From assembly GCA_902774795.1 (NCBI GenBank), contig CACYKA010000018.1, positions 1-49,694 of the forward strand: 49,694 nucleotides of DNA. The letters are read 5' to 3'. How positions within the stretch are numbered: the stretch's first letter is position 1; every line of letters begins with the position of its first letter. The position numbers and the translations under genes were made by a program. Below, piece after piece: positions 5,237-14,189 of this stretch. The stretch is from an uncultured Prevotellaceae bacterium. Lineage in GTDB: Bacteria > Bacteroidota > Bacteroidia > Bacteroidales > Bacteroidaceae. The notes beneath the pieces are model-generated. The model had not been told where the DNA came from, searched no databases, and saw only the letters and a program-made list of their open reading frames with translations.

Positions 5237-5815
5237 TCATATCCCCAGTCCGGCTTCGAATTGGTTGTTTCCTATGAGACTGCAGAAATACTCGTGGAGC
5301 CTGGTGTCGTCGTCGAGTTCAGGATGGAAAGAGGTGGCGAGCTGGTTTCCCTGAAGGGCTGCAACAACGTGGCCGTCAACTTCTGACAGGACATGACAGT
5401 CGTGACTCAGCACCTCTTCTATATATGGCGCACGGATGAACGTCATGGGCATATCATCACCAACCCACACAACCTTACCCCGCGTATGGAAACTGCCGAG
5501 CTGGCGACCGTAGGCATTGCGGCGCACACGGATGTCCATCGTGCCAAGATGATCTTCTGAAAGAAGTATCATACCAGCGCAGGTACCGAAGACTGGCAGC
5601 CCGTTAAGGATAGCCTGACGTATGGGCTCGTAAAGTCCAAGTTCCTTAAGCAAACGCATCTGGACCGTACTCTCACCGCCAGGCAGTATGAGAGCATCCT
5701 TCTCCTGCTGCCAGTCTCGGTACTGGCGTATCTCGAATGATTCTACGCCAAGCTGCTGAAGCTTGTGTTCGTGTTCTATGAATGCCCCTTGCAGGGCCAA
5801 AACTGCTATCTTCAT
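5237..5815 (-). CDS. pdxT: Pyridoxal 5'-phosphate synthase, glutaminase subunit PdxT
   Basis: PdxT hydrolyses glutamine and channels ammonia to PdxS for PLP synthesis in the cytoplasm. The 192 residues show the class-I glutaminase features: PGGEST at 45-50, the nucleophile in FGTCAGM (Cys79), and His164 and Glu166 in FHPEL. The length is normal. It is the last gene of the eleven-gene sulfur operon, 39 bases after pdxS, separated by a heptamer array. Its C-terminus, QFEAGLGI, ends in the same seven residues as the serine acetyltransferase two genes upstream. That tail is not part of the catalytic domain and looks like a CysK-docking peptide. Confidence 0.97.
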   Translation of the reverse strand: MKIAVLALQGAFIEHEHKLQQLGVESFEIRQYRDWQQEKDALILPGGESTVQMRLLKELGLYEPIRQAILNGLPVFGTCAGMILLSEDHLGTMDIRVRRNAYGRQLGSFHTRGKVVWVGDDMPMTFIRAPYIEEVLSHDCHVLSEVDGHVVAALQGNQLATSFHPELDDDTRLHEYFCSLIGNNQFEAGLGI

Positions 5816-5829
5816 ATCCTTATCTCTTC

Positions 5830-5857
5830 CATCTTACATCTTACTTCTTCCCTCTTA
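5830..5857 (-). repeat. Heptamer array between pdxS and pdxT
   Basis: Four units of 7 bases (plus strand CATCTTA twice, then CTTCTTC and CCTCTTA). The pdxS stop codon (5855-5857) lies in the last unit, and the array fills most of the gap to pdxT. Confidence 0.8.
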
Positions 5858-6727
5858 CTTCCCACGTTCTGCCATTAATAGTTCTATTTCCTGTTCATTA
5901 ATCCCTACCATTGCCTCGCCGAGGTCTTCGCTGAGTTCTGCCAGGAGTTTGGCATCCTGATAGTTGGTCACTGCCTGCACTATGGCTGCAGCACGTTTCT
6001 GGGGGTTGCCGCTCTTGAAGATGCCACTGCCCACGAATACGCCCTCGGCACCCAACTGCATCATGAGGGCGGCATCGGCAGGTGTAGCCACACCGCCGGC
6101 AGCAAAGTTCACTACAGGCAGCTTGCCGTTCTCGTGCACGAACCTCACCAGTTCGTATGGTGCCTGCAACTGCTTGGCAGCCTCGAACAGTTCGTCCTCG
6201 CTCATGCTGACCAGACGGCGTATCTCGCTCTGCATAAGTCGCATGTGGCTCACAGCCTGAACAACATCGCCCGTACCGGGTTCGCCCTTGGTGCGAATCA
6301 TCGTAGCACCCTCGGCTATGCGGCGCAGGGCCTCGCCCAGGTTCTTGGCACCGCAGACAAAGGGTACGTCAAATTTTGTCTTGTCGATATGGTAAATGTT
6401 ATCGGCAGGACTGAGCACCTCACTCTCGTCGATATAGTCAATCTCTATGGCCTGCAGTATCTGTGCCTCGGCAATGTGGCCGATGCGGCACTTTGCCATA
6501 ACGGGTATGCTCACGGCCTCCTGAATTCCGCGAATCATTTTAGGGTCGCTCATTCTCGATACACCACCTGCTGCACGTATATCGGCAGGAATTCTCTCAA
6601 GTGCCATCACGGCGCATGCTCCTGCCTCTTCGGCTATGCGTGCCTGTTCAGGGGTTGTAACGTCCATAATAACTCCGCCCTTAAGCATCTGGGCCAGCTG
6701 ACGATTCAGTGTCTGTCTTTCGTTCAT
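5855..6727 (-). CDS. pdxS: Pyridoxal 5'-phosphate synthase, lyase subunit PdxS
   Basis: PdxS condenses ribose 5-phosphate, glyceraldehyde 3-phosphate and ammonia to PLP, working as a dodecamer with PdxT. The frame extends upstream to 6853, but the ATG at 6727 gives 290 residues, the family length, starting [20 protein letters not shown]. The two Schiff-base lysines are visible: Lys79 in [10 protein letters not shown] and Lys147 in [11 protein letters not shown]. The phosphate site GGVATPADA and GSGIFKS are also present. Its place behind three sulfur genes fits a role as PLP supplier for the operon's two PLP enzymes. Confidence 0.97.
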
Positions 6728-6789
6728 CTTTTGTGTGTTTAGTGATTCTTTATATATTGATAGTTTTTTTTGTTTTGGTGAGCAGCGGT

Positions 6790-12490: not shown

Positions 12491-12970
12491 CTAAATAAAC
12501 AGCGTTTGTCCACCGTCTGAGAGTTTCAGGAACGAGGCTACTCCGAGCACATCTTTCACCTCTGTTATAAAGTCCTCCTTCTTCAGGCCAAGCACATGCA
12601 TGGCCATCTCACATGCGTAGAAGTTGATACCAAGGGCCTTTGCTGCCTCTACCAGTTCTTCAAGGGTCGCGACATTCTTCTTGCGCATCAGGTGGCGGAA
12701 TATCTTCGGACCTGCACCGAGGAAGTTAAATCGGCTGGTAGGAGTCACCTTCAGGCCACCCATCATGAAGCCGAAGATTTTGGTTAGCCAATTACCGCCC
12801 GTGAAACTTCTCCCTTGCTTCTGTTTGATAGCATCCAGTCCCCAGAAGGTGAAGAAGATATTCACCTCATAGCCTACTGCCGCCGCACCAGTTCCAAGTG
12901 TGAACACAGCCGTCAGTTTGTCAAAATCGCCACTAAAAGCGATGATACTTAATTTCTTCTGTTCTACCAT
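12491..12970 (-). CDS. DsrE/DsrF-like sulfur-relay protein
   Basis: A 159-residue DsrE-family protein (SIIAFSGDFDKLTAVFTLGTGAA landmarks at about 8-30, FFTFWGLDAI) with the conserved cysteine in NFYACEMAMHVLGL near the C-terminus. Members accept and pass persulfide in sulfur relays and often pair with TusA, as here. The ATG at 12970 is used rather than a TTG two codons upstream. The Phe/Met-rich middle suggests peripheral membrane contact, but no clear transmembrane segment is seen. Confidence 0.9.
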   Translation of the reverse strand: MVEQKKLSIIAFSGDFDKLTAVFTLGTGAAAVGYEVNIFFTFWGLDAIKQKQGRSFTGGNWLTKIFGFMMGGLKVTPTSRFNFLGAGPKIFRHLMRKKNVATLEELVEAAKALGINFYACEMAMHVLGLKKEDFITEVKDVLGVASFLKLSDGGQTLFI

Positions 12971-12984
12971 AATCAATAATAATC

Positions 12985-13012
12985 TATAACCTTTAACCTC
13001 TAAACTCTAAAC
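12985..13012 (-). repeat. Heptamer array, 4 units, ending at the PLP-enzyme stop codon
   Basis: Four units of period 7 (TATAACC, TTTAACC, then TCTAAAC twice) on the plus strand. The array stops one base before the stop codon of the first operon gene. Confidence 0.78.
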
Positions 13013-13013
13013 T

Positions 13014-14189
13014 TTATTCCTCAACCGCTTGTTCGATGTCTGCAAGGAGATCTTCCGGTGCTTCCAGTCCAATAGAGAGACGAATAGTCGTCTGGCGAAC
13101 GTCCATCTGTTCCAGTTGTCTCTCAGGGAACAGACCGAAGATGGTTGTTGCAGGATGTATGGCCAGCGTACGACTGTCGAAAAGATTCGTGGCACGATGA
13201 ATCAGCTTCAGCCGGTTAATGAAGTCGAAACACTTCTCCTTTGATGCCAGGTCAATAGTTAGCATTGCTCCTGCCGTCGGACCGAACTGTTTATGAGCCA
13301 GTTCATGATAAGGATTGTCCTCCAGTCCTACATAGTTCACACTGTCTATTCCAGGCACTTCTCTCAAAGCCTTTGCCAGCCAGAGCGCATTGGAGGCCTG
13401 GCGCTGATAGCGCACATCGAGTGTCTCCAGTCCGAGAGTCTGCATATAAGCCACCTGCGGGGTCATGTAAGCTCCGAGGTTTACGAGCAACTCATACTTC
13501 ACACGCTGATTGATAATCGGGAAAGTGCCATAGTCTATAATCAGTCCTCCTAATGAAGTTCCGCCGCCTGAGATATATTTCGTGCTCGAAACCACTTCTA
13601 TATCTACCCCAAAATCCTTCAGTGATGTCTCCGTAAACGGAATGACTGTCGAGTCTGCAATCACAGGAACACCTTTGCGATGAGCTATCTCTGCGATGGC
13701 TGCAAGATCTGCCACCTCCAACTGCGGATTGGTGATAATCTCCAGATATACACAACATGTATTTTCGTCAACAGCCTGCTCCACAACCTCCAGGTCAGTA
13801 AGGTCACGCAAACGCGCCTTCACACCGAAACGCAACAGCGTATTGCTGACAAGCGCCAGACTATTGCCGAAGAGGTGACGCGTTGTAACTATATTCTTAC
13901 CCTGTGAGCTTGCTGCCAGAAGAGCATTGCTGATGGCGGCCATACCCGAATTGAAGGCTGTCACATGGGCTGCACCCGTAATGGCCTTTACACGCTGCTC
14001 GAAGTTCGTCACAGTAGGATTCGTCATGCGTGCATAGTCAGGAACCTTTATACGGTTGCAGAAGGCATCGCTCATGGTCTGTGCATCCTGAAACTCAAAC
14101 GCCACATTATTATATACAGGTAATGCCAGCGCGCCATAGGCATCAGGCCTGTCGTATGGAGTATGTATGGCTATCGTCTGCTTTTTCAT
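13014..14189 (-). CDS. Cys/Met-metabolism PLP enzyme, O-acetylhomoserine sulfhydrylase-like
   Basis: A 391-residue fold-type I PLP enzyme of the gamma-synthase/lyase family, with the PLP lysine in VSSTKYISGGG, the YARMTNPTVTNFEQ entry motif, and a C-terminal QTTIRLSIGLE. This family includes MetY, MetB and methionine gamma-lyase. Operon context (sulfur carrier, E1, JAMM peptidase) parallels the Wolinella HcyS/HcyD/HcyF/MetY pathway, in which MetY uses carrier thiocarboxylate to make homocysteine. The ATG at 14189 is chosen; the TTG at 14204 is not needed. It is the first gene of the operon. Its exact acetylated substrate cannot be read from sequence. Confidence 0.9.
   Translation of the reverse strand: MKKQTIAIHTPYDRPDAYGALALPVYNNVAFEFQDAQTMSDAFCNRIKVPDYARMTNPTVTNFEQRVKAITGAAHVTAFNSGMAAISNALLAASSQGKNIVTTRHLFGNSLALVSNTLLRFGVKARLRDLTDLEVVEQAVDENTCCVYLEIITNPQLEVADLAAIAEIAHRKGVPVIADSTVIPFTETSLKDFGVDIEVVSSTKYISGGGTSLGGLIIDYGTFPIINQRVKYELLVNLGAYMTPQVAYMQTLGLETLDVRYQRQASNALWLAKALREVPGIDSVNYVGLEDNPYHELAHKQFGPTAGAMLTIDLASKEKCFDFINRLKLIHRATNLFDSRTLAIHPATTIFGLFPERQLEQMDVRQTTIRLSIGLEAPEDLLADIEQAVEE

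Follow-up and report, generated by a model that had tools for sequence, protein, structure and literature searches.

The window analysed here, a stretch of 49,694 nucleotides, is contig C18 (CACYKA010000018.1) of an uncultured Prevotellaceae genome (G000, 79% complete), and it contains an operon in which the gene for an encapsulin shell lies among genes for sulfur transfer. Eleven minus-strand open frames span 14204 to 5237 in the window's open-frame list. The gaps between successive genes are 43, 56, 44, -1, 1, 19, 24, 14, 62 and 39 bases, with a maximum of 62, figures that rest on start codons picked by eye. An initial annotation of this DNA had described the same eleven genes; all of the frames are present and their families agree with Pfam and NCBIfam matches. 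The nearest named relatives are Prevotella/Xylanibacter genomes, many of them labelled as ruminant-derived; one rumen strain with the operon is Xylanibacter ruminicola D31d (locus L122).

The first gene (13014..14189, minus strand as for all eleven) encodes a MetY-like pyridoxal phosphate (PLP) enzyme of the Pfam family Cys_Met_Meta_PP. It is followed by genes for a DsrE2-like sulfur-transfer protein with one conserved Cys (12491..12970; PF13686 DrsE_2, 137 bits) and a TusA-like sulfur carrier with a CP motif (12210..12434; PF01206, 72.8 bits). The Cys is found in 79/79 aligned sequences for DsrE2 and 74/74 for TusA; the DsrE2 score with NF047629 is 73 bits, below the cut-off of 210. The genome then encodes a Family 2B encapsulin shell (10726..12165) and a SufS-like cysteine desulfurase that we propose as its cargo (9200..10726). 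Next come a ThiS-like carrier (8977..9198; PF02597, TIGR01683), a rhodanese-free MoeB/ThiF-like E1 with PF00899 as its sole Pfam domain (8145..8957; 274 bits), and a JAMM (Prok-JAB) peptidase (7722..8120; PF14464, 87.5 bits), referred to here together as the carrier module. The last three genes encode accessory functions: a serine O-acetyltransferase (SAT)-like protein (6790..7707; 155.7 bits with the cysE model TIGR01172, under its cut-off of 210.65), and PdxS (5855..6727, start picked by eye; NF003215, 510.9 bits, above cut-off) and PdxT (5237..5815; PF01174, 181.3 bits) for PLP synthesis.

In a family sample of 301 genomes, the window genome included, a shell above cut-off occurs in 37 genomes and JAMM in 39. 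Shell and JAMM occur together in 35 genomes, the shell alone in 2, JAMM alone in 4 and neither in 260 (Fisher p 8e-39, which overstates the association because the genomes are related). A weak shell match in G124 (19.1 bits, below cut-off) was left out of the 37. At the level of genera, JAMM is present in 10/10 with a shell and in 2/20 others (p 2e-6); one of the ten, g12, has shell and JAMM in separate genomes. Among genomes of at least 90% completeness, 18/18 with a shell have JAMM, compared with 1/150 of the others. In one of the genomes with JAMM alone, G217, only JAMM fragments at contig ends were found. A functional link between shell and carrier module is near certain, and the earlier claim that the shell is joined to a set of carrier, E1, JAMM and MetY is borne out by co-inheritance in 35 of the 37 shell genomes and by linkage in several gene orders.

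Neighbourhoods were compared in the family sample, which is an even draw, and in named close relatives, which are mostly of one lineage because they are the 80 best-scoring of 531 confirmed matches. The pooled 116 shell loci comprise 111 distinct ones, five having been dropped with shell DNA identical to that of another locus. Many of the 111 end early at contig ends; 58 have at least 6 kb on each side (22 from the family draw and 36 from named close relatives) and are called well covered below. DsrE2, TusA, shell and desulfurase occur together in 36/36 fetched family neighbourhoods, and JAMM lies within the fetched stretch in 29 of them. Well-covered loci have DsrE2 and TusA without exception (58/58 each). 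The desulfurase is unbroken in 57 of them, the exception being L039, where it is split; the MetY-like gene is likewise full-length in 57, with only a fragment in L055. E1 and JAMM are each present in 52, and carrier, E1 and JAMM jointly in 51. There are at least four gene orders: colinear as in the window, divergent, with E1 and JAMM flanking DsrE2-TusA upstream of the shell, and with all upstream.

The conserved core is thus DsrE2-TusA-shell-desulfurase-MetY plus carrier-E1-JAMM. We rejected the eleven genes as a conserved unit: SAT is found in 17/111 distinct loci (10/58 well covered) and PdxS/PdxT in 3/111 (3/58), which makes them occasional accessories outside the core. The gene set persists in relatives and the order varies; of these loci, many of them cut at contig ends, L086 alone repeats all eleven genes in the window's order. 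PdxST is also present in L096 and L137, which have other layouts.

Beyond the family, a sample at the level of the order has a shell above cut-off in 7/295 genomes. Six of these lie outside the family; L252, L253 and L254 have linked carrier, E1 and JAMM, L249 has carrier, DsrE2 and TusA with E1 and JAMM unmatched in its stretch, and the remaining two are short or cut stretches. In a phylum sample the shell occurs in 61/395 genomes. The 30 short loci returned from it all belong to family f18, of another class, and have SAT or CysK beside the shell. Three longer f18 stretches gave no JAMM, DsrE2 or TusA match; in one of the three, an E1-like gene and a ThiS match are separated by frames that look by eye like ThiG/ThiH. 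Within this sampling, the merger of shell and carrier genes thus occurs in Bacteroidales-type genomes and is missing from the remaining Family 2B shells that accompany a desulfurase. The f18 loci (L178-L207 and L221-L223) encode a Family 2B-type shell together with a desulfurase that has a long extension, and some of these genomes have several shell matches.

The shell protein matches PF19307 (SrpI-like, HK97-fold) at 370.8 bits against a cut-off of 22.8, and a cNMP-type domain (PF00027) is inserted at residues 112-190. Its best match among solved relatives is 9bje, and it also matches 9bhu, 9bix and the Family 2A shell 6x8m. Cyclic nucleotide control of the shell is unlikely: the position expected for the phosphate-binding arginine, placed by the canonical motif, is Ser165, invariant in 19 sequences. 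The part of PMC12407261 consulted reports no cyclic nucleotide binding for shell domains of this type. The score with the Family 2B model NF041163 (encap_f2b) is 556.3 bits (cut-off 400), and the protein also exceeds the cut-off of the Family 2A model (417.7 bits, cut-off 380). Family 2A encapsulins are defined by the absence of a cNMP-type domain in the text consulted of PMC8346489, and by that definition PF19307 with the inserted domain makes this a Family 2B shell.

The desulfurase gene starts with a one-base overlap on the shell gene. The protein matches Aminotran_5 and exceeds the cut-off of the SufS-type model TIGR01979 (565.7 bits). Its catalytic residues are intact, with Cys468 in 114/115 and Lys330 in 115/115 aligned sequences. 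The desulfurase match starts near residue 107-111 of 508, which leaves an N-terminal extension of ~108 residues, close to the 110 first proposed. With NF041166, the model of the Family 2A encapsulin cargo desulfurase, the score is 726.3 bits, below the cut-off of 800, and the match begins only at profile position 218 of 623. The extension is variable, but GFGIGIPE is in the majority consensus of 35 relatives and in most extensions among the sequences listed for comparison. More distant relatives (five listed sequences) have a YYFL-type motif in its place: two from f18, two from loci with Family 2A-type shells, and L249 of the window's own order. The window desulfurase differs from the listed Family 2A-type and f18 sequences in having no such motif. 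The Family 2A encapsulin SrpI/CyD of Synechococcus elongatus likewise has a SufS-like cargo with a disordered N-terminal targeting domain, but it has no cNMP-type domain and its extension is 225 residues long (PMC8049743, as far as consulted). The split desulfurase of L039, in frames of 327 and 158 residues near 10445-11904 (numbered on the turned stretch), is due to a frameshift or an assembly error.

When the carrier is read through to its stop codon, 103 of the 133 stretches scanned (loci and parts of the window) have an in-frame FLYF(M/A)GGG end, and in none of them does the protein terminate directly at GGG; this search motif fixes the core and leaves the tail free. In the window the tail is CQIDN, and across the wider scan set it is 1 to 40 residues long. 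Where a distinct shell locus includes a carrier, the protein always continues beyond GGG (86/86), and no such tail is produced by a locus end. As a control, ThiS near a full-length ThiG ends exactly at GG in 19/19 cases (18 shell genomes and G039), and we conclude from this difference that the operon carrier is a separate paralog that requires trimming. Trimming of such a tail is also a feature of HcyS of Wolinella.

The same data bear on a role of the carrier in thiamine synthesis, by which it would be the thiamine ThiS and the linkage would reflect that pathway. Its NCBIfam label is ThiS, and a search of the window's genome gave no second ThiS. The window's genome has no full-length ThiG (at 79% completeness), though, and a full-length ThiG is absent from 19/37 shell genomes, 7 of them at least 90% complete. 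All 18 shell genomes that have a full-length ThiG have a separate, tailless ThiS around it. The operon carrier is not a thiamine ThiS; we reject the thiamine role on the C-terminal tail and the distribution of ThiG, and give it almost no chance of being correct.

The JAMM peptidase has intact metal-site residues (E22, H80, S81, H82, S90 and D93) in 82/82 distinct sequences, as located by the JAMM motif. One use for such a peptidase would be to remove a carrier conjugated to proteins in the manner of SAMP, perhaps to the shell or its cargo. JAMM matches the desampylase model at 64.4 bits and E1 the model of the SAMP E1 (UbaA) at 337.3 bits, both under the cut-offs (130 and 450). Against conjugation there is also the MetY-like gene that accompanies the set in 57 of the 58 well-covered loci, although the comparison with solved structures covered just two of these MetY. 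We consider conjugation to proteins very improbable.

The operon MetY has its PLP lysine, K209 (numbered from a TTG-started frame), in 63/63 aligned sequences. Among solved chains it is closest to 3ri6 (322.8 bits), 81.6 bits ahead of the next (241.2). One member of a second operonic MetY subtype behaves in the same way (348.1 bits with 3ri6, 248.8 with the next). The genome's other MetY matches 8wko and 8sf5 at about 540 bits and 3ri6 at only 271; it directly adjoins CysK (G000:C37:2805-5109, L219). The database label of 3ri6 is O-acetylhomoserine sulfhydrylase, and we take it to be the thiocarboxylate-using enzyme of Wolinella. Judged by sequence, the operon carrier and MetY are likely of the thiocarboxylate type. 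HTS, the O-acylhomoserine-forming enzyme, is present in the window's genome.

The initial annotation had joined to this homocysteine route a cysteine route of the mycobacterial CysO/Mec type, and carrier, E1 and JAMM could in principle serve only the latter, acting on the product of SAT. SAT is present in the window and in the 17 loci counted above, and CysK in 25/111. The window operon, however, is without a cysteine synthase, and the CysK of the genome is on another contig. Two neighbouring CysK of relatives pass the cysteine synthase A cut-off and with the CysM models fall below theirs, so they are CysK and not CysM. The full-length MetY-like gene of 57 of the 58 well-covered loci also argues against this route. 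The cysteine half of the claim is not upheld, and the carrier module is very improbable as a CysO/Mec-like pathway.

The gene set closely resembles the protein-thiocarboxylate homocysteine pathway of Wolinella (HcyS/HcyF/HcyD/MetY), reportedly described by Krishnamoorthy and Begley in 2011. Shared features are the tailed carrier, the rhodanese-free E1, JAMM and a MetY nearest 3ri6. The difference is in the source: the Wolinella route draws sulfide from sulfate through sulfite reductase, and a shelled desulfurase with DsrE2 stands here where that sulfide would. The sulfur operons with ThiS/MoaD, JAB, E1 and SirA of Iyer et al. 2006 (PMC1779556, Table 1 row 4e) are also similar, with a rhodanese-free E1, a constant SirA/TusA and O-acetylhomoserine sulfhydrylase. 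They differ in having sulfate reduction genes, and a capsid-like shell and desulfurase are unlisted in that row. On the shell side, Andreas and Giessen 2021 (PMC8346489) count desulfurase operons for both Family 2B (199) and Family 2A (1281). As here, their Family 2B desulfurase systems combine a cNMP-type shell, a desulfurase with a long extension and an accessory serine O-acetyltransferase; the accessories named are SAT and rhodanese, with carrier, E1, JAMM, MetY, DsrE and TusA unnamed in the text consulted.

It had been suggested that the full set was undescribed. Both modules were already known, as the consulted parts of PMC1779556 and PMC8346489 make clear, so only their merger would be new. 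We found no literature that links an encapsulin with a sulfur carrier or thiocarboxylate, in a search that covered articles without their supplements and outside most subscription journals, and a search on encapsulin with Prevotella turned up only drug delivery and phage capsids. With Bacteroidetes and desulfurase, the literature found was PMC8346489 and a review of ferritins.

Two genomes in which no shell was detected, G236 and G028, point to what else may feed the carrier. In both, a sulfite reductase that bears TusA as its C-terminal domain (L229:7401-9740 and L230:13170-15512) is encoded a few kb at most from carrier-E1-JAMM, and G028 has CysD, CysN and CysH between the carrier module and this fusion. 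In G236, the TusA domain of the fusion shares 44-53% identity with operonic TusA among the 40 loci listed. These sulfite reductases have no match in the 116 shell loci, the search covering the loci only. In a third genome, G039, JAMM adjoins SAT without a shell or desulfurase between them, and the frames of carrier, E1, JAMM, CysK and SAT are open. DsrE2 and TusA survive there only as broken remnants (L231:2983-3290), the beginning of DsrE2 continuing into a disrupted TusA. L253 has a shell and desulfurase at the place left empty in G039. The patterns of G236/G028 and of G039/L253 are as expected if DsrE2-TusA-shell-desulfurase is an interchangeable source for the carrier line. We infer that homocysteine synthesis by way of a thiocarboxylate can draw on this block as an alternative source of sulfur.

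We propose that the operon is a sulfur-delivery line to homocysteine from a shelled desulfurase, and give this reading a probability of roughly 0.55. The Family 2B shell would enclose the SufS-like desulfurase, loaded through its N-terminal extension. The desulfurase would remove sulfur from cysteine, perhaps with storage of some in the shell. JAMM would first trim the tail of the carrier to expose GG, and DsrE2 and TusA would bring sulfur to E1, by which the ThiS-like carrier would already have been adenylated. The resulting thiocarboxylate may donate its sulfur to O-acylhomoserine, the predicted substrate, on the MetY-like enzyme, and JAMM would then free homocysteine, the predicted product. 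SAT and PdxST, where present, may favour the supply of cysteine and PLP. Our best guess for the sulfur source of the carrier line is the shelled desulfurase, with a chance of one half or a little more.

A number of observations weigh against this proposal. The extension of the desulfurase is unlike that of studied Family 2A cargo, and the shell pores may not let a folded TusA through. JAMM is missing from the fetched stretch in 7/36 family neighbourhoods and from 2/37 shell genomes, in both of which the contig stops near or within the desulfurase. The carrier module is on a contig other than that of the shell in G023, G049, G066 and G171, and is ~13 kb away in G199. In G023 and G049 it lies within about 8 kb of CysD, and the shell may for that reason not feed it. 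CysD is above cut-off in 8/37 shell genomes (none in G000, at 79% completeness), and G104 has CysD, CysN and CysH directly upstream of the shell operon. G039, at 92% completeness, holds carrier, E1 and JAMM although its genome lacks a shell and the contig gave no match to the desulfurase, and its remnant pattern is a single case. The absence of the shell from G236 and G028 is uncertain because these genomes are 73% and 56% complete.

Absence of sulfate assimilation does not mark the shell genomes. We rejected it because CysD, found in 8/37 of them, is present in only 2/23 shell-less genomes of the same search, so that its absence is not distinctive.

Elemental sulfur storage by an encapsulin has reportedly been described in an earlier study, and the shell could here be a sulfur store, in which the desulfurase deposits elemental sulfur, while the carrier system, though co-regulated, would make methionine separately from free sulfide. 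Sulfur storage is named as the role of desulfurase encapsulins (PMC12407261) and is one of two models offered in PMC8049743, both as consulted. The genomes G023 and G049, with the carrier module apart from the shell and near CysD, fit such a separation, and the absence of CysD from most genomes tested means that environmental sulfide or cysteine may supply sulfur generally. On the other side, the sulfur-relay proteins DsrE2 and TusA lie beside the shell and desulfurase in 58/58 well-covered loci, and a store needs no JAMM, yet JAMM is present in 35 of the 37 shell genomes. We regard a separate store as unlikely, though it is the strongest competitor of the delivery line from a shelled desulfurase.

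A broader form of the delivery line, to which we give somewhat less than even odds, is that the encapsulin is a pluggable source, the carrier line to homocysteine being fed either by a sulfite reductase-TusA protein or by a cysteine-stripping, perhaps storing, organelle. If true, sulfur would pass from cysteine to methionine through a nanocompartment, a transsulfuration without cystathionine and thus a second way to move sulfur between amino acids beside the cystathionine-based one. In rumen bacteria, a protein organelle of viral origin would then be connected with the synthesis of amino acids by a ubiquitin-like protein. The destination of sulfur from desulfurase encapsulins is named as open in the text consulted of PMC8049743; the gene set described here names a concrete acceptor line (DsrE2, TusA, E1, tailed carrier, JAMM and MetY) that is testable with purified parts.

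Upstream of the MetY gene there is a match to a Bacteroidetes-type -33/-7 promoter (TTTG ... TANNTTTG; 14265-14234, minus strand). The motif scan of the whole window gave 5 such matches, compared with 0.51 expected from shuffles; the consensus used is that of this group, and a match alone is no evidence of function. Scans of the window for sigma-70 promoters and terminators did no better than on shuffled sequence.

A NarL/LuxR-type response regulator (cluster c9, e.g. L041:10486-11151) is encoded near the shell operon in 17/37 stretches (36 loci and the window), the window itself being without it, and frames that resemble it by eye are present in L223 and L230. It is a possible regulator of the shell operon. 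A divergent gene at 14468-15190 of the window points away from the operon and encodes a protein with 4Fe-4S domains, possibly an electron-transfer partner of the operon or a mere neighbour. On the opposite strand at 2961-5226, a DUF3987 protein gene and a small downstream frame end 10 bases from PdxT; they resemble Bacteroidales mobile-element genes. The window also encodes, at 31868-34864, a single protein in which a C10 peptidase is joined to a Spi inhibitor domain and, at the C-terminus, a dockerin-type domain.

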